The notes below the pieces were generated by a model. It was not told the origin of the DNA. It saw only the letters and a list, made by a program, of their open reading frames with translations, and ran no database searches. A DNA stretch of 64,000 bases, from assembly GCF_013337045.2 (NCBI RefSeq), contig NZ_CP118259.1, forward strand, positions 1,054,001 to 1,118,000, written 5' to 3'. This DNA comes from Agrobacterium vitis. Lineage in GTDB: Bacteria > Pseudomonadota > Alphaproteobacteria > Rhizobiales > Rhizobiaceae. A program made the position numbers and the translations under genes. Below are positions 7,769-34,579 of the stretch, piece after piece (position 1 is the first letter of the stretch; each line of letters opens with the position of its first letter).

Positions 7769-9091
7769 ATGCGTCTCTCCCGTTATTTTTTGCCCATCCT
7801 GAAGGAAAATCCCAAGGAAGCGGAAATCGTTTCTCATCGGCTGATGCTGCGCACCGGCATGATCCGGCAGCAGTCGCAGGGCATCTACTCCTGGCTGCCG
7901 CTGGGCAAGCGCGTGCTGGACAAGGTCAATGCGATCATTCGTCAGGAGCAAAACCGGGCAGGGGCAGTGGAATTGCTGATGCCGACGCTGCAATCGGCGG
8001 AGCTTTGGCAGGAAAGCGGTCGCTACGACGACTATGGCAAGGAAATGCTGCGGATCAAGGATCGCCAGGACCGGCCCATGCTGTACGGTCCCACCAATGA
8101 GGAAATGGTCACGGACATCTTCCGGTCCTATGTAAAGTCCTACAAGAGCCTGCCGTTGAACCTCTATCACATACAATTGAAATTCCGTGATGAGATCAGG
8201 CCGCGCTTCGGCACGATGCGGTCGCGCGAATTTCTGATGAAAGACGCCTATTCCTTCGATCTGACGAAGGAAGCCGCCATTCACTCCTATAACAAGATGT
8301 TTACCGCCTATCTCAGGACCTTCGACCAGCTTGGTCTGCGGGCCATTCCGATGCGCGCCGATACCGGCCCGATCGGCGGTAATCACAGCCATGAATTCAT
8401 CATTCTCGCCGATACCGGTGAATCGGAAGTGTTCTGTCACAAGAGCTTCTTGGATCGCGCCATTCCGGCTGCCGATACCGATTTTGATGATGTTGCTGGC
8501 CTTCAGGCGATTTTTGACGACTGGACGTCAAACTATGCCGCCACATCCGAAATGCATGATGAGGCGGCTTACGGCGCCATGCCCGATGATGCGAAGATTT
8601 CCGCGCGTGGTATCGAGGTCGGTCATATCTTCTATTTCGGCACCAAATATTCCGAGCCGATGGGCGCCAAGGTGCAGGGACCTGACGGTAAGGAACATCT
8701 TGTCCACATGGGATCCTACGGTATCGGTCCGACCCGCCTTGTTCCGGCCATTATCGAAGCTTCCCATGATGAAAATGGCATTATCTGGCCGGCTTCAGTC
8801 GCGCCGTTCGATGCTATCATCATCAACATGAAGGCTGGGGATGCCGGTTGCGATGGCGCATGCGACACCGTGTACGGGGCGCTGACCAAGGCCGGCAAGG
8901 ATGTTCTTCTCGACGATACCGATGATCGCGCCGGTGCGAAATTCGCACTCGCGGATTTGATCGGCGTTCCCTACCAGGTGATCGTCGGTCCGAGGTCGGT
9001 CGCCAATGGCGAAGTCGAGCTGAAGAACCGTAAAACCGGCGAGCGTGAAACCATGACCATCGAGGCCGCCATCAACCGTCTTGCCGGTTGA
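7769..9091 (+). CDS. proS: Prolyl-tRNA synthetase
   Basis: Class II aminoacyl-tRNA synthetase that charges tRNA-Pro. At 440 residues it is the short alphaproteobacterial form without the INS editing domain of the long bacterial enzyme, so mischarged Ala-tRNA-Pro must be cleared in trans. Class II motifs are visible: [18 protein letters not shown] (motif 2), LMKDAYSF, and [14 protein letters not shown] (motif 3), followed by the anticodon-binding domain with [17 protein letters not shown] 7769 follows GGAAG with 5-base spacing; ATG 7757 contains that site and is unlikely. Confidence 0.96.
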
Positions 9092-9110
9092 GCGACGCCA
9101 GGAGGCAAGA

Positions 9111-10418
9111 TTGAGCAGTGAAACCGGAAGCTCTGCGGCAGGCGATACCGCAGTGCCGTCATCCGCAAAGCCGTTTTCCGCATTCGAGCGCATGGTGGCC
9201 TGGCGCTACCTGCGCGCTCGGCGCAAGGAGGCGGTGATTTCGGTCATTGCCGGCTTTTCCTTCGTCGGCATTATGCTAGGGGTTGCGACCCTGATCATCG
9301 TCATGGCTGTCATGAACGGTTTTCGGACCGAGTTGATTTCTCGTATCCTCGGCATAAACGGGCATATGATCGTTCAGCCGGTCGATAGTCCCTTCACCGA
9401 CTTTGCCGATCTTGCCAAGAAATTCTCCGCCGTGCCCGGGGTCACCATGGCGCTGCCGTTGGTCGAGGGGCAGACTCTGGCCTCCGGCAAGGGCGGGGCT
9501 GGAACGGGTGCGCTGGTGCGCGGCATCCGCCCCGACGACCTGTTGAAGCTCAAGGAAGTAGCGGCAAATATCAAGACCGGCGACATGGTTGGCTTCACGT
9601 CCGGCCAAGGCGTGCTGATTGGTTCGCGCATGGCCAACGATCTCGGCTTGCAGGCGGGCGATTCCATCACCCTGGTCTCGCCAGAGGGGGACGTGACGCC
9701 GATGGGTGTCAACCCGCGGGTCAAATCCTACAAGATTTCCGGTACGTTTGAGATCGGCATGTCGGAATATGATTCTTCGATTATCTATATGCCGCTTGAA
9801 GAATCGCAGCTCTATTTCAACGCGGAAGGCGTGGTGCAATCCATCGAATTGTTTGTCACCAATCCTGACGACATCGATGAACTCCGTCCCAAGGTCGAGG
9901 CGGCAGCGGGTCGGCAGGTGTTTATCAGCGATTGGCGCCAGCGCAACCAGACCTTCTTCTCCGCCTTGCAGGTGGAGCGCAATGTGATGTTCATGATCCT
10001 GACATTGATCGTCATCGTCGCGGCGCTGAACATCATCTCCGGCCTGATCATGCTGGTAAAGGACAAGAGCAGCGATATCGCCATTCTGAAGACCATGGGC
10101 GCCAGTTCAAGTTCGATCCTTCGGATCTTCTTCATGACAGGTGCGGCCATCGGCATCGCTGGCACATTCGCAGGCGTGGGACTGGGCGTGCTGGTCTGTC
10201 TGAACATCGAATCGATCCGGAATTTCTTCTCCTGGGTCTCCGGTACTGTGTTGTTTGATCCGCAACTCTATTTCCTCAGCAAATTGCCAGCGGATATGAG
10301 CTTTGGTGAAACGGTTTCGGTGATTATCATGTCGCTGACCCTGTCCTTTATCGCCACCATCTTTCCGGCATGGCGGGCGGCCCGGCTCGATCCCGTGCAA
10401 GCCCTGCGTTACGAATAA
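9111..10418 (+). CDS. lolC: Lipoprotein-releasing ABC transporter permease (LolC/E family)
   Basis: Inner-membrane permease of the Lol system that extracts lipoproteins for transfer to the outer membrane. The 435 residues show the family layout: a first helix near residues 45-65 ([20 protein letters not shown]), a large periplasmic domain, and three C-terminal helices of an FtsX domain with ILKTMGAS as the coupling helix. A single LolC/E-type permease, not a C plus E pair, sits with LolD here. The start is TTG 9111, with AGGAGG six bases upstream; no equally placed ATG exists. LolD follows 14 bases after the stop. Confidence 0.92.
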
Positions 10419-10432
10419 GGAACAGCGGATCC

Positions 10433-11122
10433 ATGGCGAACAACCCTGTTCTTGAAATTTCGGAGGTCTCGCGCACCTATGGGGAAGGCGAAACCAAGCT
10501 TTCGATTCTGAAAGGTGCCGGACTAAAATTATACGAAGGCGAAACCGTCGCTCTGGTTGCTCCTTCGGGCACGGGCAAGTCCACCCTGCTGCATATTGCC
10601 GGGTTGCTGGAACATCCGACCGATGGCGACGTGCTGATTGGCGGCACCCGTTGCAATGAATTGTCCGAGGAAGGCCGCACGGCCATGCGCCGCACCAGCA
10701 TTGGCTTCGTCTATCAGTTCCATCACCTGTTGCCGGAGTTTTCGGCGCTTGAAAATATCATGATGCCGCAGATGATCGCGGGCCTGAGCATTCCGGAAGC
10801 CAGCAAGCGCGCCAAGGCTTTGCTCGATTACATGCGCATCGGTCATCGCGGCGACCACCGGCCCGCCGAGCTTTCCGGCGGCGAACAGCAGCGCGTGGCC
10901 ATTGCCCGGGCTGTCGCCAATGCACCGCTATTGCTGCTTGCGGACGAGCCGACCGGCAATCTCGATCCGGAAACCGCGGCTTACGTGTTTTCCGCCCTGG
11001 AAGCGCTGGTGCGCCAGTCTGGCCTTGCGGCGTTGATCGCCACCCATAATCATGAACTCGCCCGGCGGATGGACCGCTGCGTCACGCTTCAGGACGGCAG
11101 AATCGTCGATTTCGATTTGTAA
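10433..11122 (+). CDS. lolD: Lipoprotein-releasing system ATP-binding protein LolD
   Basis: ATPase of the Lol lipoprotein export complex, partner of the permease just upstream. The 229 residues contain Walker [10 protein letters not shown], the Q-loop region [17 protein letters not shown], the signature LSGGEQQR, Walker [11 protein letters not shown] and the switch histidine in [12 protein letters not shown] 10433 was chosen because homology begins immediately after it; an in-frame upstream ATG at 10370 lies inside the permease gene. The operon ends at a strong terminator about 40 bases after the stop. Confidence 0.95.
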
Positions 11123-11164
11123 TTGCCCACGGGTCTGGAAAGAACTTTTTACATTAGAGATATC

Positions 11165-11197
11165 AAAGCCCGTCGATCACTTTATCGGCGGGCTTTT
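11165..11197 (+). terminator. Rho-independent terminator of lolCD
   Basis: AAAGCCCGTCGAT (11165-11177) and ATCGGCGGGCTTT (11184-11196) form a 13-bp stem with one G-U pair and a 6-nt loop, ending in TTTT. It lies 42 bases after lolD. Confidence 0.85.
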
Positions 11198-11213
11198 CGT
11201 ATGGTGCATAGAG

Positions 11214-11252
11214 TTTGTCAGAGAAAAATGGAAACCGGTTTCGGCAGACAAA
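11214..11252 (+). repeat. Palindromic intergenic repeat (TTTGTC...AACCGGTT...GACAAA)
   Basis: A 39-base unit with ends TTTGTC (11214-11219) and GACAAA (11247-11252) and a GAAACCGGTTTC core. A close copy is at 34539-34579, with partial copies near 6789, 21322 and 24006. Units of this look are scattered between genes in rhizobia, like REP or RIME elements; the family name is from memory. Confidence 0.65.
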
Positions 11253-11270
11253 TGATTGGAAAAATTTCTG

Positions 11271-11294
11271 TTGACGAACAAACAAAAGGAGAAC
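11271..11294 (+). promoter_or_regulatory. LexA-box-like site overlapping a possible promoter
   Basis: TTGACG at 11271-11276 resembles a -35 element. Immediately beside it AAAC (11280-11283), seven bases and GAAC (11291-11294) match the alphaproteobacterial SOS box GAAC-N7-GAAC with one mismatch; an extra GAAC stands at 11276-11279. The A-rich spacer is typical of rhizobial boxes. It lies 33 bases ahead of the 28-residue peptide gene. Binding is inferred. Confidence 0.5.
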
Positions 11295-11326
11295 AAAGTG
11301 AATACATAACCAGACAGGAGTGAGCT

Positions 11327-11413
11327 ATGAGTGACATTCTGCATGACATCGCCGCATTCGCATCGCTGGCTGTTTTTATCGCCAGCTTGTCTGTTCTGGC
11401 GTTGGCTTTTTGA
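11327..11413 (+). CDS. 28-residue single-helix membrane peptide, SidA-like candidate
   Basis: ATG 11327 is preceded by AGGAG at 11316-11320, and the frame gives 28 residues: a short polar start (MSDILHDIAAFA) and a hydrophobic helix rich in Ala, Leu, Ser and Val to the end. A good ribosome-binding site and the LexA-like site upstream make it more than a chance frame. Caulobacter SidA is a 29-residue SOS-induced inner-membrane inhibitor of division that acts on FtsW, and I recall it lying beside dnaE, as here. Sequence homology to SidA is not shown; the likeness is in size, topology, context and control. Confidence 0.55.
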   Translation: MSDILHDIAAFASLAVFIASLSVLALAF

Positions 11414-11701
11414 AATGCCGGGCATCGTCTTGGCGCGATCTGACCTGGATGGGCCTGCCAAAGGCACACGTCGCTTTAAGGGGATAGGTGGCAGTGAGGC
11501 TGCATGTCTTCTGGACATGGCAGGCCAAACCTAGGACAATAACCTCCATACAGCGCCGTGCGTTTTGTTAAATGCACATCGGACGCGGTAACACTTTCAT
11601 CTGCTGCATTGCTTTTTCCTTGGGCCGATTTCGGTTTAACGAGAAGTTTTATGGCGGCGGTCTTCAGTGTGTAGCGGCGACAAGCAAGCAGGATGGATGC
11701 A
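11414..11701. other. Intergenic region upstream of dnaE
   Basis: No convincing gene. The first hundred bases after the peptide are GC-rich and featureless. From about 11548 comes a repeat-like element, listed separately, that runs close to the dnaE start. Its last part presumably holds the dnaE leader. Confidence 0.4.
11548..11640 (+). repeat. Rhizobial intergenic repeat with GTGCG...GCAC palindrome
   Basis: GCCGTGCGTTTTGTTAAATG starts an imperfect 20-base palindrome (11558-11577), followed by GGACGCGGTAACACTTTC and TGCTGCATTGCTTTTTCCTT. This succession resembles an abundant intergenic element I recall from Rhizobium and Agrobacterium genomes (palindrome, GGACGC-TGTAACACTTT, CTGCATG-T-rich). 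The first part recurs at 16601-16630. Confidence 0.55.
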
Positions 11702-14700
11702 ATGAGTAATATGGGCGCAAGCGGACAGGCTGTAGTGAAGGCGGGTCCAGGTTTCGTCCATTTGAGAGTGCATTCCGCCTATTCGCTGCTGGAAGGTGCG
11801 CTGCCGCTGAAGAAGATCCTGAGCAAGGTTGCGTCTGACCAGCAACCGGCCATTGCCATTACCGATACCAATAACCTGTTCATCGCTCTGGAATTTTCCC
11901 AGAAGGCGCTCGGCGATGGCTTGCAGCCGATCATTGGCTGTCAATTGTCCATCGATATGGAAGACGCCAGTGAGGAAAAGCGGGGCAATAGCTCTCTTGC
12001 CAAATATCCCGCCATCGTTCTTCTGGCTGCCGATCCGGCGGGTTACGAGCGGTTGGTGGACCTCGTCAGTCGTGCCTATCTTCAAGGCGACAATAATCAA
12101 TCCGTGCATATCACCGCATCCTGGCTGGAAGAGATCGGCACGGATGGCCTGATCGCCCTGACGGGTGCATCAGGCGGTCCGGTCGATCTGCCGTTGAAGG
12201 ACGGCCATCACGCCCAGGCGCTGTCGCGGCTTCAGACGCTCAAATCCCTGTTCGGTGATCGGCTTTATCTCGAATTGCAGCGCCACCAAGGCTATGACCG
12301 GGTGCATGAAAGCCGGATGATCGCGCTGGCTTATGATCACGACATTCCATTGGTTGCCACCAATGAGGCCTTCTTTCCCAGCCGTGACGATTATGATGCC
12401 CATGACGCGCTGATGGCGGTTGCCCATAATGCCATCGTGTCCGACGACCGCCGGTTTCGCCTGACACCGGATCATTATCTGAAAAGTCGCAAGGAAATGC
12501 AGGCCTTGTTTAAGGATCTGCCGGAAGCGCTTGAAAACACGGTGGAGATTGCCAGCCGCTGTTCTTTCGTTCTCGATACCCGCAATCCTATATTGCCGCG
12601 CTTTACCGGTGGCAGTGACGATCCGGAAGAGGCCGAGCGCGCTGAAGCCGGGGAGTTACGCCGTCAAGCTATCGAGGGATTGGACGACCGGCTGGCGAAG
12701 CTTGGCATGGCGCCAGGCTACGAGGAAAAGGAATATCGAGACCGGCTGGATTTCGAACTCGGCGTCATTGAGCGGATGAAATTTCCCGGCTACTTCCTGA
12801 TCGTTGCCGACTTCATCAAATGGGCCAAGAGCCAGGACATTCCAGTTGGCCCCGGCCGTGGTTCCGGTGCGGGTTCGCTGGTTGCCTATGCCCTGACCAT
12901 TACCGATGTCGATCCGCTGCGGTTCTCCCTGCTGTTCGAACGCTTCCTCAATCCTGAGCGCGTCTCGATGCCCGACTTCGACATCGACTTCTGCCAGGAT
13001 CGCCGTGAAGAGGTGATCCGTTATGTGCAGCGCAAATATGGGCGCGAACAGGTGGCGCAGATCATCACCTTCGGGTCGCTCCAGGCCCGTGCAGCCTTGC
13101 GTGACGTTGGCCGGGTGCTGGAAATGCCCTATGGGCAGGTCGACAGGATCTGCAAGCTGGTGCCGAACAATCCGGCCAATCCGACCCCCTTGTCCAAGGC
13201 GATTGAAGAAGAGCCAAAGTTTCAGGAGGAGGCGGAGAAGGAACCGGTCGTCGCCCGTCTGCTGGATATCGCCCAGAAGATCGAGGGGCTTTATCGCCAC
13301 GCCTCCACCCATGCCGCCGGTATTGTTATCGGTGACCGCCCGCTGTCCAAGCTGGTGCCGATGTATCGCGATCCGCGTTCGGATATGCCGGTCACCCAGT
13401 TCAACATGAAATGGGTGGAACAGGCCGGGCTGGTCAAGTTCGACTTTCTCGGATTGAAGACGCTGACGGTGCTGAAAACCGCTGTGGATTTCTGCCGGCT
13501 GCGCGATATCGAGATCGATCTGGCGACCATTCCGCTGGACGACGAAAAAACCTATCAAATGCTGTCACGCGGTGAGACCGTCGGTGTGTTCCAGGTGGAA
13601 AGTGCCGGCATGCGCAAGGCGCTGATCGGCATGCGGCCCGACTGTATCGAGGATATTATCGCGCTAGTGGCGCTTTATCGCCCTGGCCCGATGGAAAATA
13701 TTCCGGTCTACAATGCCCGCAAGCATGGCGAGGAGGAGATCGAATCGATCCATCCGACCATCGATTACCTGCTGAAGGAAACCCAGGGGGTTATCGTCTA
13801 TCAGGAGCAGGTCATGCAGGTGGCCCAGGTTCTGTCGGGCTATTCGCTCGGTGAAGCGGATCTTCTGCGCCGCGCCATGGGTAAGAAGATCAAGGAGGAA
13901 ATGGATAAGCAGCGCGCCCGTTTCGTCGATGGTGCGGTGAAGAATGGGGTCTCAAAGCCCCAGGCCGACAACATTTTCGACCTGTTGGCAAAGTTTGCCA
14001 ATTACGGCTTCAACAAATCCCACGCTGCCGCCTATGCCATTGTCTCCTACCAGACCGCCTATATGAAGGCGCATTATCCGGTGGAGTTTCTGGCCGCGTC
14101 GATGACACTCGATATGGCCAATACCGAAAAACTGGTGGATTTTCGCCAGGACGCCGGGCGTCTCGGTATTGAGGTGGTGCCGCCCTCGGTGCAGACGTCT
14201 TTCCGGCACTTCCAGACCGGTCCGAACAGGATTTACTATTCATTGGCCGCCTTGAAGGGCGTCGGTGATGCAGCCGTCGAGCATATCGTGGCGGTCCGCG
14301 CCGATACGCCCTTTGCCGATCTGGAGGATTTTTGTCTGCGGATCGACCCGAAGCAGATCAATCGCCGGGTGTTTGAAAGCCTGATTTTTGCCGGTGCCTT
14401 CGATTGCTTTGGCCGCGATCGTCCCGAACTGTTGGCTGGCATGGACCGGATCATCGGCTATGCGCAGCGCGCCCAGGAAAATGCCGTCAGCGGCCAGTCG
14501 GATATGTTCGGCTCTGGCGGCGCCACAGGGCCGGAACGGATTTCCTTTCCGACCTATACGCCCTGGCTGCCATCTGAAAAGCTGATGCGGGAGTTTCAGG
14601 TTCTGGGTTTCTATCTGTCGGCTCATCCGCTCGACACCTATAAACCGCTGCTGGAAAAGATGCGCGTGCAGAATTTCGCTGACTTTTCCGGCGCTGTGCG

Positions 14701-15190
14701 CCAGGGTGCGACGGCTGGCCGGCTGGCTGGGACGGTGATTTCAAAGCAGGAGCGCAAGACGCGAACCGGAAACAAAATGGGCATCGTTACCTTCTCGGAT
14801 GCCACTGGCCAGTTCGAGGCGGTGCTGTTTTCGGAAGGCTTGAACCAGTATCGCGACCTGCTCGAATCGGGCAAGTCATTGGTGATCACGGTTGCTGCCG
14901 AAGAACGACCGGAAGGCATTGGTCTTCGTATCCAGACGGCGCAATCTCTGGAAGAGAAATCCTTGCAGATGCAAAAGACGCTGCGCGTCTATCTGCGCGA
15001 TTCCGGCCCCTTGCGGGCGCTGGCCGCCCATCTCAACACCAAGGGCGATGGACTGGTTTCCTTCGTCGTGATCAAGGAGGATGGCCGCCGCGAAATCGAG
15101 GTCGAACTCAATCAACGTTTCCGCATCACGCCCGAAATTGCCGCCGCCATGCGGTCCGCGCCGGGCGTGGTGGATGTTGAATTGGTATAG
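11702..15190 (+). CDS. dnaE: DNA polymerase III subunit alpha
   Basis: Replicative polymerase catalytic subunit, about 1162 residues, the normal length for DnaE1. The N-terminal PHP domain begins at FVHLRVHSAYSLLEGALPLK; the palm carries VGPGRGSGAGSLVAYAL and the catalytic aspartates of MPDFDIDF; FNKSHAAAYAIVSYQTAYMK lies in the fingers, and a C-terminal OB fold (GTVISKQERKTRTGNKMGIV) binds single-stranded DNA. ATG 11702 follows AGGATGG at good spacing; ATG 11693 in the same frame is possible and would add three residues. It stands alone, preceded by a short peptide gene and intergenic repeats. Confidence 0.95.
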   Translation: MSNMGASGQAVVKAGPGFVHLRVHSAYSLLEGALPLKKILSKVASDQQPAIAITDTNNLFIALEFSQKALGDGLQPIIGCQLSIDMEDASEEKRGNSSLAKYPAIVLLAADPAGYERLVDLVSRAYLQGDNNQSVHITASWLEEIGTDGLIALTGASGGPVDLPLKDGHHAQALSRLQTLKSLFGDRLYLELQRHQGYDRVHESRMIALAYDHDIPLVATNEAFFPSRDDYDAHDALMAVAHNAIVSDDRRFRLTPDHYLKSRKEMQALFKDLPEALENTVEIASRCSFVLDTRNPILPRFTGGSDDPEEAERAEAGELRRQAIEGLDDRLAKLGMAPGYEEKEYRDRLDFELGVIERMKFPGYFLIVADFIKWAKSQDIPVGPGRGSGAGSLVAYALTITDVDPLRFSLLFERFLNPERVSMPDFDIDFCQDRREEVIRYVQRKYGREQVAQIITFGSLQARAALRDVGRVLEMPYGQVDRICKLVPNNPANPTPLSKAIEEEPKFQEEAEKEPVVARLLDIAQKIEGLYRHASTHAAGIVIGDRPLSKLVPMYRDPRSDMPVTQFNMKWVEQAGLVKFDFLGLKTLTVLKTAVDFCRLRDIEIDLATIPLDDEKTYQMLSRGETVGVFQVESAGMRKALIGMRPDCIEDIIALVALYRPGPMENIPVYNARKHGEEEIESIHPTIDYLLKETQGVIVYQEQVMQVAQVLSGYSLGEADLLRRAMGKKIKEEMDKQRARFVDGAVKNGVSKPQADNIFDLLAKFANYGFNKSHAAAYAIVSYQTAYMKAHYPVEFLAASMTLDMANTEKLVDFRQDAGRLGIEVVPPSVQTSFRHFQTGPNRIYYSLAALKGVGDAAVEHIVAVRADTPFADLEDFCLRIDPKQINRRVFESLIFAGAFDCFGRDRPELLAGMDRIIGYAQRAQENAVSGQSDMFGSGGATGPERISFPTYTPWLPSEKLMREFQVLGFYLSAHPLDTYKPLLEKMRVQNFADFSGAVRQGATAGRLAGTVISKQERKTRTGNKMGIVTFSDATGQFEAVLFSEGLNQYRDLLESGKSLVITVAAEERPEGIGLRIQTAQSLEEKSLQMQKTLRVYLRDSGPLRALAAHLNTKGDGLVSFVVIKEDGRREIEVELNQRFRITPEIAAAMRSAPGVVDVELV

Positions 15191-16734: not shown

Positions 16735-18033
16735 CTATTTTTTAGTGCTGCCGAAGGTGAAGCCGGTTTCGACCATGCCCTTGCCGAATTTCATCCGCAA
16801 TTGGTCCATGGCGGCTTCCGCCTTGGCGCGGCGGGCGGCGTCTGGATCGACCAGATCCGGTGGGTCGGCCAGATTTGGATCGGCAAAATCGCTGACGCCG
16901 ATACCGATCAGCCGAAATTTTGTGCCATCGGCTTCCTTCTCCAGCAATTGCAGGCCCGTGCGAAAGATCCGGTCGGCGAGCTGGGTGGGGTCGTCCAAGC
17001 GACGATTGCGGGTGCGCAGTTTGAAATCGGCGCTCTTCAGCTTCAAGATAACAGTGTGTCCAGCCAGTTCCTGCTTTTTCAAGCGCCATGCGACTTTCTC
17101 CGAGAGCTTGCGCAGATGGGGAACAAGGTCTTCCCGGCGGGAAATATCGTCAAAGAACGTGGTTTCAGCGGAGACGCTTTTAGCCGCGTCATTGATATGA
17201 ACATCCCGGTCGTCGATGCCTTTTGATAGCCGGGCCAGTCGTTGGCCCATGCTGCCATAGCGCCGGATCAGGTCGCTTTCCTGCATGGTTTGCAATTGCC
17301 CGATGGTGCGAATGCCGTCTTTTTCCAAGGTGGCGGCGAAGGCCTTGCCGACGCCCCAGATCGTGGTGACAGGGCGGGGCGCCAGAAAATCCAGCGCTTC
17401 AGCCTCGCCGATGACCGAAAATCCCCGTGGTTTTTGCAGGTCGGACGCCACTTTCGCCAGAAATTTACAATAGGAGAGACCAACGGAAACGGTGATGCCG
17501 ATCTCGCTTTCGATACGCCGGGCAAGCCGTGCCAGCACAAGGGCGGGTGGCGCGTGGTGCAGGGTTTCTGTGCCTTTCAATTCCAAAAAGGCCTCATCAA
17601 TGGACAGGGGTTGCACCAGAGGGGTCAGTTCCTCCATCATCGCCCGCACTTGCCGTCCGACGCGGGAATATTTTTCCATATTCGGCGGAATGACCACCGC
17701 GTCAGGGCAGGCTTCCAGCGCCTTGAACATCGGCATGGCCGAGCGCACGCCATGGATGCGGGCCACATAACAGGCGGTGGAAACCACGCCGCGCTTACCG
17801 CCGCCAATGATCAATGGCTTGTCGATCAGGTCTGGATTGTCGCGCTTTTCAACCGAGGCATAAAAGGCGTCGCAATCGATATGGGCCAATGTCAGCTTGA
17901 ACAGTTCAGGGTGATAGACGAGGCGAGGGCTGCCGCAAGCCGTGCATCTCCGCTTGCCTTCCGCCTGTAGCGAAAGGCAATCACGACAAAAGCCGGAACG
18001 GAGTGGCGGCGCAGCAGACATGGGCGAGAACAT
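16735..18033 (-). CDS. dinB: DNA polymerase IV (DinB) with N-terminal zinc ribbon
   Basis: Y-family translesion polymerase of 432 residues, longer than the usual ~350. Before the polymerase comes an extension with two cysteine pairs, FCRDC and CTAC, about 15 residues apart, that should bind zinc. The palm has [16 protein letters not shown] and the catalytic SIDEAFLEL; the helix-hairpin-helix [17 protein letters not shown] and the little-finger domain follow. ATG 18033 is used, but no strong Shine-Dalgarno is visible and ATG 18021 (MSAAPPL) is equally possible. No clear LexA box was found upstream; instead a four-unit G-rich repeat lies in its leader. Confidence 0.92.
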
Positions 18034-18090
18034 AAGTTGAACATCGCCACCATAAGCCGGGTTTTCAAGGCCTGCAAGTGGATACCCTGC

Positions 18091-18119
18091 CAATCCCCAA
18101 TCCCCAATCCCCAATCCCC
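18091..18119 (-). repeat. Four-unit heptamer repeat, predicted G-quadruplex
   Basis: CAATCCC is repeated four times exactly. On the minus strand, the coding strand for both flanking genes, this gives four GGGG runs separated by ATT, an ideal three-nt-loop G-quadruplex in RNA or DNA. It lies about 60 bases upstream of the dinB start and 25 bases after the preceding gene's stop. Confidence 0.8.
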
Positions 18120-18143
18120 GAAAATGTAAAAGACGGGAGTGGA

Positions 18144-18791
18144 TCAGATCCGCGCCTGGAAATGGCGGAGAACGCGCTCGCTGGCATCGTGCCAATCGTT
18201 TGCACGCAGTACATGGGGGCCAGGCGGCGGCGCGTGGCGATGAATTTCTGACTGCGGCCCGATTTGCACCAGCAGGCAGTCCGGCGCATGCTCTCCCACG
18301 GAATGGAGATTGTGGGCCATGTCATCCATGAAGGCGAAGGGCAGGGGCCGGTCTCCATGCAGGGCTTTCACGACTGGCCCCTTTGGGCTTTCCGTGGCCA
18401 ACAGCGGGAAATCCAGCCCTAGCCGATCCAGCAGACGGCGTCGCTGGGCGGTAAAGGCGGGGGGCATGGCTGTCAGAAAGACAATATCGGCAATCTTGCC
18501 GATGCGTTGCAGCACGGCCACGGCATCGCCAAACGGGGTTTGCCACTCTTCCTGCTTTTCGAAAAATGTCAGCAGCAGATTCGTGACGATCTGATCTTCC
18601 AGCGCAAGCTGATCCTTGGCTGACACGATATTGCCATGCAGTCGGAACGATTTCGGCAAGAGACGATGGCCCAGGCTGTCGAGATAGGCCTCGAAGGGCA
18701 CCAGGAATTCCAGCACGACGTCATCGACATCGCTGATCAGCAACGGCCGGTCCACTAGACGAACATGGTTGAAGTCAACGATCTCACCCAT
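18144..18791 (-). CDS. HAD-like hydrolase family protein
   Basis: A 215-residue protein with a HAD-type start, [19 protein letters not shown], where DVDD supplies the nucleophile/acid aspartates. [10 protein letters not shown] matches motif II with its threonine, and [14 protein letters not shown] fits the aspartate pair of motif IV. The substrate cannot be read from sequence. Its ATG overlaps the stop of the DUF3572 gene by one base (TGATG), suggesting coupled translation, and this pair sits divergently from divK in rhizobia. Confidence 0.75.
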
Positions 18792-34538: not shown

Positions 34539-34579
34539 TTTGTCAGGGAAAAGTGGCAACCGGTTTTCCGAAAGACAAA
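34539..34579 (-). repeat. Palindromic intergenic repeat (TTTGTC...AACCGGTT...GACAAA)
   Basis: A 41-base unit with ends TTTGTC (34539-34544) and GACAAA (34574-34579) around GGCAACCGGTTTTCC. It is the best match to the unit at 11214-11252. It sits 12 bases upstream of the pyrB start. Confidence 0.65.

Follow-up and report, generated by a model that had tools for sequence, protein, structure and literature searches.

A 28-codon gene upstream of dnaE in Agrobacterium vitis: a candidate rhizobial counterpart of the SOS division inhibitor SidA

The window analysed here, a stretch of 64,000 nucleotides from Agrobacterium vitis, contains a 28-codon open reading frame (ORF) between a LolD-type transporter gene and dnaE. 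Judging from its conservation, this ORF is a real gene, and its product looks like a divergent offshoot of the SidA division inhibitors. As an explanation of the whole locus we propose, with a probability of roughly 0.78, that this short gene encodes an SOS checkpoint peptide of the SidA type, which would be controlled by LexA and would block cell division. The features of the locus are collected in Table 1.

Table 1. Features of the peptide gene locus and of the dinB control site (window coordinates)
Feature	Position	Strand	Remark
LolD-type ABC-transporter ATPase, upstream neighbour	10370..11122	+	named from its own sequence and the LolC-like ORF 9081-10418
-35-like hexamer TTGACG	11271..11276	+	read from the sequence; in front of the LexA-type site
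Candidate LexA-type operator AAAC-N7-GAAC	11280..11294	+	one mismatch to GAAC-N7-GAAC
Second, overlapping degenerate site GAAC-N7-ATAC	11291..11305	+	from matrix rank
AGGAG ribosome-binding site	11316..11320	+	read from the sequence
28-codon peptide gene	11327..11413	+	ATG to stop; predicted SidA-like single-helix membrane peptide
dnaE, replicative DNA polymerase III alpha subunit, downstream neighbour	11693..15190	+	named from its own sequence
Exact LexA box GAAC-N7-GAAC, in-window control	18028..18042	+	at the 5' end of dinB (ORF 16735-18195, - strand)

The peptide gene and its conservation

The 28-residue product of the ORF (MSDILHDIAAFASLAVFIASLSVLALAF) consists of a short polar N-terminus (D3, H6 and D7) followed by an uncharged hydrophobic helix. 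A preliminary description of this DNA had reported the frame and the AGGAG in front of it, both of which were found again at the places given in Table 1, and had characterised the peptide as almost wholly one hydrophobic helix, which is borne out by an 18-residue hydropathy mean of 2.39, a measure of hydropathy only. The window contains 1,467 start-to-stop frames of 24 to 55 codons, alternative starts being counted separately; an 18-residue hydropathy of at least 2.3, a threshold chosen just below the value of the peptide itself, is reached by 14 of them, and within these 14 the peptide ORF is the only one with a near-LexA box at most 90 bases upstream. No match to the peptide was found in Pfam, and a few members of its alignment gave weak and unrelated matches (best E 0.024).

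The downstream gene, dnaE, served as the anchor for locating the corresponding loci in other genomes. The closest named records to the N-terminus of its product are those of three Agrobacterium vitis strains (97-99% over 136 residues), and in the window 279 bases separate the stop codon of the peptide gene from the first dnaE ATG. dnaE was located in 150 of the 151 genomes of the family, and 110 of these 150 upstream regions were read. Each of the 30 best loci in the family, among them that of the own genome, carries a 28-residue ORF with an ATG upstream of dnaE, and in the region of the ribosome-binding site these loci show 93% conservation at the -10 column, counted from the ATG. Differences per codon position amount to 0.33, 0.12 and 0.53, and conservation drops past the stop codon. 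pN is smaller than pS in each of the 435 pairs of these loci, with a median dN/dS of 0.25 (159 pairs with usable pS). Judged from these substitution patterns, the peptide ORF is under purifying selection, acting on the amino acids.

A further 80 of the other 120 dnaE-bearing family genomes were read as well. In 31 of the 80, dnaE is preceded by a small hydrophobic ORF that has an exact box, compared with 0 of 80 on the reverse strand and 1 of 1,600 shuffled controls, which here and in the class scan below keep base content only and not dinucleotides. Five more of these 80 loci were recovered by the HMM, so that the peptide gene is found upstream of dnaE in 66 of the 110 family loci read in total. 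From the named records, the best 80 of 438 confirmed loci were kept, in which some species may overlap with the family set. Their labels are Agrobacterium, Rhizobium, Neorhizobium, Ciceribacter, Allorhizobium, Peteryoungia and others, together with two odd ones, an Arenimonas MAG and a Nostoc contig, that are probably mislabelled or contaminant. The ORF is present in all 80 of these best loci, with 28 residues in 77 and 30 residues in 3, and within 75 bases upstream GAAC-N7-GAAC is exact in 62 loci and occurs in a one-mismatch form covered by the pattern in 14, with neither form in 4. The check across relatives that had been proposed beforehand thus came out positive and, because the frame, its length and the box are all conserved, this is the deciding evidence that the ORF is a real gene.

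The 44 family genomes without a peptide gene at dnaE were searched with a broader alignment of the family (A3), together with five known-positive genomes. A match elsewhere in the genome at E <= 0.01 was obtained in 36 of the 44, and in all five controls. Of the eight genomes in which nothing matched, six do not exceed 2.0 Mb; the other two have completeness ratings of 76% and 92%, the latter at a size of 4.2 Mb. The 25 best of the 36 loci were read, the other 11 being weaker matches (E 1.2e-5 to 0.007); 24 of the 25 encode 28 residues and one encodes 29, and the LexA box is exact in 24 and has one mismatch in one. The peptide gene is preceded by a LolD motif in 19 of the 25, and no dnaE motif lies downstream in 24, whereas in the remaining one it is 1.5 kb away. 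The LexA-type box therefore travels with the peptide gene and not with dnaE, which weakens any reading of the ORF as a leader peptide.

Two repeated sequences were observed in the DNA on either side of the peptide gene. Between this gene and dnaE, a 94-base element (11549-11642) has at least three further copies in the same genome (78-80% identity) and copies of 70-80% identity in several other genomes of the family, and it belongs to no Rfam family; these copies suggest an unclassified dispersed repeat or regulatory element. A motif of about 33 bases (11209-11241), which directly precedes the promoter, has matches of 84-94% identity in 10 of 121 family genomes, some of which carry several copies, and occurs a second time in the window at 34539-34566 (89% over 28 bases). 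It resembles a short extragenic repeat of the dispersed type.

The operator-like site and the promoter region

The preliminary description had placed a site with one mismatch to the LexA box 33 bases before the ATG and had it abut a -35-like element. The site was confirmed by reading the sequence, but 32 bases were counted between it and the ATG, and the TTGACG hexamer, although present, does not abut the box, from which it is separated by 3 bases. TTGAC occurs near the same place in most of the relatives shown (family and named loci), and a generic sigma-70 promoter scan reported no promoter at the operator.

One-mismatch LexA boxes are present in the window at chance frequency (43 observed versus 44.6 expected), so that this site proves nothing alone. 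Over the whole genome the exact GAAC-N7-GAAC is no commoner than a reversed-pattern control (151 versus 207). As matches to the simple pattern are at chance level, matrices and conservation were used instead. A four-site SOS matrix was made of the boxes before the imuA-like, uvrA/ssb, comM-like and dinB genes of the same genome, which were chosen by eye from translated starts (imuA, uvrA/ssb and comM among 20 regions, dinB in the window). A six-site matrix contained in addition two boxes of an unassigned tandem site, and a third matrix was made of the boxes of 29 relatives, own genome excluded. Among approximately 128,000 window positions, the candidate operator ranks third, second and first with the four-site, six-site and relatives' matrices, respectively, so that the matrix scan suggested at the outset spoke for the site. 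The overlapping degenerate site ranks fourth with the six-site and third with the relatives' matrix and is not among the best eight of the four-site matrix; a second box at this spacing is found in 10 of the 29 relatives. The dinB box, which is a fair control for the relatives' matrix only, being absent from that matrix, is the second-best window site with it.

As the dinB box overlaps an in-frame ATG, translation of dinB probably begins at another ATG a little further downstream. Elsewhere in the same genome (L216, G000:C1:1020291-1020316), two overlapping exact LexA boxes (GAACAAAATATGAACAAAAAGCGAAC) are followed by a single listed ORF of 102 codons with a TTG start. This locus is a candidate for an unrecognised SOS target.

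Relation to SidA and occurrence in other families

The NCBIfam model of SidA (NF033228, div_inhib_SidA) has a cut-off of 35 bits and gave no match to the window peptide at E <= 1. It made one contact only with the 28 members of the rhizobial alignment (E 0.031) and none at E <= 10 with ten relatives. At E <= 1, its matches in the own genome were at two other places only and none was at the peptide gene, and over 240 class genomes it had matches in 93, none of them above the cut-off. A weak match in the genome G213 adjoins dnaE on its upstream side and pointed to the SidA family. Within the family of G213, which is taken to be Caulobacteraceae (label f66), 61 of 99 genomes exceed the 35-bit cut-off, and among 14 named control genomes Caulobacter vibrioides alone does so. 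The 30 best of these 61 SidA loci were read, with dnaE placed by tblastn. Each of the 30 encodes a peptide of 29 residues and has dnaE approximately 70-130 bp behind the SidA ATG, codon 1 being extrapolated from the tblastn match. The position of sidA next to dnaE, given in the preliminary description, thus holds throughout the curated loci read. An exact LexA-type box was found by pattern in 21 of the 30 and is absent in 9.

A rhizobial profile (A1, 28 of the 30 family loci) was compared by hhalign with a SidA profile (A2, 16 of the 30 SidA loci). The two align without gaps over columns 1-22, colinear from M1, with a probability of 81% and an E value of 1.2e-5. The score of 22.2 was not reached in any of 200 column shuffles of A2 (maximum 16.7), and a reversed profile gave a probability of 0.4%. 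M1, A10, S13 and F17 are invariant in the 28 rows of A1 and also in the 16 rows of A2. R6-[DE]7 is common to both profiles, the window peptide itself having H6, and no K, R, D or E occurs past position 7 in any row of either. All 16 SidA rows have W19, M20 and C22, for which rhizobia mostly have A, S and S. The wider-family alignment A3 shows A or S at position 10 and S, T or A at position 13, leaving D7 and F17 alone as near-invariant.

The idea that this is the rhizobial counterpart of SidA therefore stands as regards register, position, size and operator-like site; it needs amending in that the peptide falls below the NF033228 cut-off and is not always encoded at dnaE. A peptide that lies below this cut-off, yet has a SidA-like register, position, size and operator, looks like a diverged branch of SidA rather than a formal member of the family.

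A search of 385 class genomes with the A1 HMM returned the own genome and one weak match (E 0.0065, inside a 268-codon frame), and nothing convincing outside the family. Upstream regions were also compared by position and box. Outside the family, 99 loci were read of the 368 class genomes with dnaE, namely the 29 best (own genome apart), the 30 best of 59 selected genomes and 40 hand-chosen ones, a sampling that favoured larger genomes and took few per family. An exact box is present upstream of dnaE in 20 of the 99 (none of 99 on the reverse strand and none of 990 shuffles), and at each of these 20 loci a hydrophobic ORF of 29-47 residues starts at most 90 bases after the box. The other 79 have no boxed ORF upstream of dnaE. 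The boxed ORFs, among them MFKIFVEEAAALASITLFVGMIAIWAQVIPQL (L087) and MARWVREMLSLASCGGFVWMAWQAALLAY (L141), span 11 family labels in the range f2 to f125, in which f66 denotes the SidA family. In the window's own family, two loci (L254 and L276) have a longer W-[AV]-[DE]-I tail, as in other families, so that there is no sharp boundary between the forms.

Position, box and size, and not sequence, suggest that even the most distant of these class ORFs are homologous. Similarities in position, LexA box, size and single helix suggest that the SidA family extends into further alphaproteobacterial families. On balance we incline, though only slightly, to the view that SidA is no speciality of Caulobacter but the ancestral SOS checkpoint effector across much of the Alphaproteobacteria. 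It would be a fast-evolving membrane peptide of approximately 27-47 residues encoded in the lolD-dnaE interval, would retain its own LexA operator where it is separated from dnaE, and would arrest division through a small-x2-small-x3-F face (A10, S13 and F17 in the closest branches) docking on FtsW/FtsI/FtsN. Upstream of dnaE at the loci L169 and L087, boxes of the two types GAAC-N7-GAAC and GTTC-N7-GTTC both precede the small ORF, which perhaps reflects denser LexA control.

Proposed function and comparison with known systems

SidA of Caulobacter is reported to block division at the FtsW/FtsI/FtsN step (PMC4211646), and the filamentation of a Caulobacter delta-lexA mutant is attributed to sidA, since the delta-lexA delta-sidA double mutant does not filament (PMC12700426). 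For rhizobia, we infer LexA binding, damage induction and FtsW targeting along the same lines. In the undamaged cell the gene would be off, with LexA on the operator that is recognised here from its sequence, downstream of the -35-like element and before the start codon. Upon DNA damage, RecA-driven cleavage of LexA would release the promoter and allow the 28-residue peptide to be made. The peptide would then insert into the inner membrane by its predicted helix and, as SidA does, bind the late divisome (FtsW/FtsI/FtsN) and block cytokinesis. The contact might be made through the helix face formed by positions 10, 13 and 17, which read A-S-F in every A1 and A2 row, and the helix positions shared with SidA are no more than suggestive of FtsW as the target.

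Alternatively, the peptide might be an SOS-induced toxin whose target is the membrane itself, which it would disturb, and not the divisome. TisB of Escherichia coli, a tiny SOS-linked peptide of the inner membrane, is amphipathic, whereas the 28 rhizobial rows carry no charge after position 7. Toxins of the TisB/DinQ type have a long structured leader and an antisense RNA antitoxin; here the operator lies just 32 bases from the ATG, which may speak against such a leader, and an Rfam scan of 11000-11800 gave nothing near a gathering score. Size and operator alone do not discriminate, since DinQ of Escherichia coli is also a tiny SOS-linked inner-membrane peptide (PMC3567139), but profile and position link the rhizobial peptide to SidA, and a toxin of this kind appears unlikely.

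Somewhat less likely again is a LexA-controlled SidA homologue whose target has changed in the rhizobial branch, for example to the polar-growth machinery. Many rhizobia do grow from the pole, and the rhizobial peptides have not retained W19, M20 and C22 of SidA; against such a change, positions 10, 13 and 17 and the R6-[DE]7 pair (H6 in the window) are common to the close rhizobial and the SidA alignments.

The location upstream of dnaE in 66 of the 110 family loci would also fit a leader peptide or upstream ORF (uORF) whose role is to adjust dnaE expression and whose product is inert, and PMC10117765 counts a small ORF in the dnaE1 5'-UTR of Sinorhizobium meliloti, sORF25, among possible uORFs. 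A uORF should remain tied to the gene that it regulates, whereas 36 of the 44 genomes without a dnaE-linked copy have a match elsewhere, with the exact box in 24 of the 25 loci read and the dnaE motif missing downstream in as many. The selection on amino acids and the 279 bases up to the first dnaE ATG in the window speak against it too, and we regard this reading as very improbable. That a chance ORF lies behind a chance box, as the chance frequency of one-mismatch boxes in the window would permit, has a negligible probability in view of the conservation of frame and box across relatives.

A SidA-type checkpoint peptide, the reading preferred here, would provide a 28-codon candidate, with its likely switch, for damage-induced division arrest in the named species surveyed. 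A literature search, in which subscription papers, including the original SidA paper, lay outside the coverage, found no description of a rhizobial SidA and no named gene that halts division on DNA damage in rhizobia and agrobacteria. Deletion of the gene is predicted to remove much of the SOS filamentation. With a rhizobial branch beside SidA of Caulobacter, the few helix positions in common stand out as the probable contact surface, so that the mechanism can be tested directly.

Among the known systems, sORF25 of Sinorhizobium meliloti was identified by Ribo-seq as a novel translated small ORF (PMC10117765). It resembles the window gene in its position in the dnaE1 5'-UTR, and its authors discuss a possible uORF; from this position only, it is plausibly the orthologue of the peptide gene. 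DidA of Caulobacter is likewise a small, single-helix, damage-induced division inhibitor, but differs from the window peptide in that it has 71 residues, is independent of SOS and interacts with FtsN (PMC4211646). The toxin/RNA-antitoxin layout of TisB and DinQ is not seen at the window locus, and the helix in the 28 rhizobial rows is uncharged. The differences from SidA itself are the absence of W19-M20-C22, a D instead of an R at position 3 and the lack of a match to NF033228. Shared with SidA are the length of 28-29 residues, the single hydrophobic helix, the [R]-[DE] pair at positions 6-7, A10, S13 and F17 (in the close rhizobial alignment), a gene directly upstream of dnaE and a LexA-type box in front of it.
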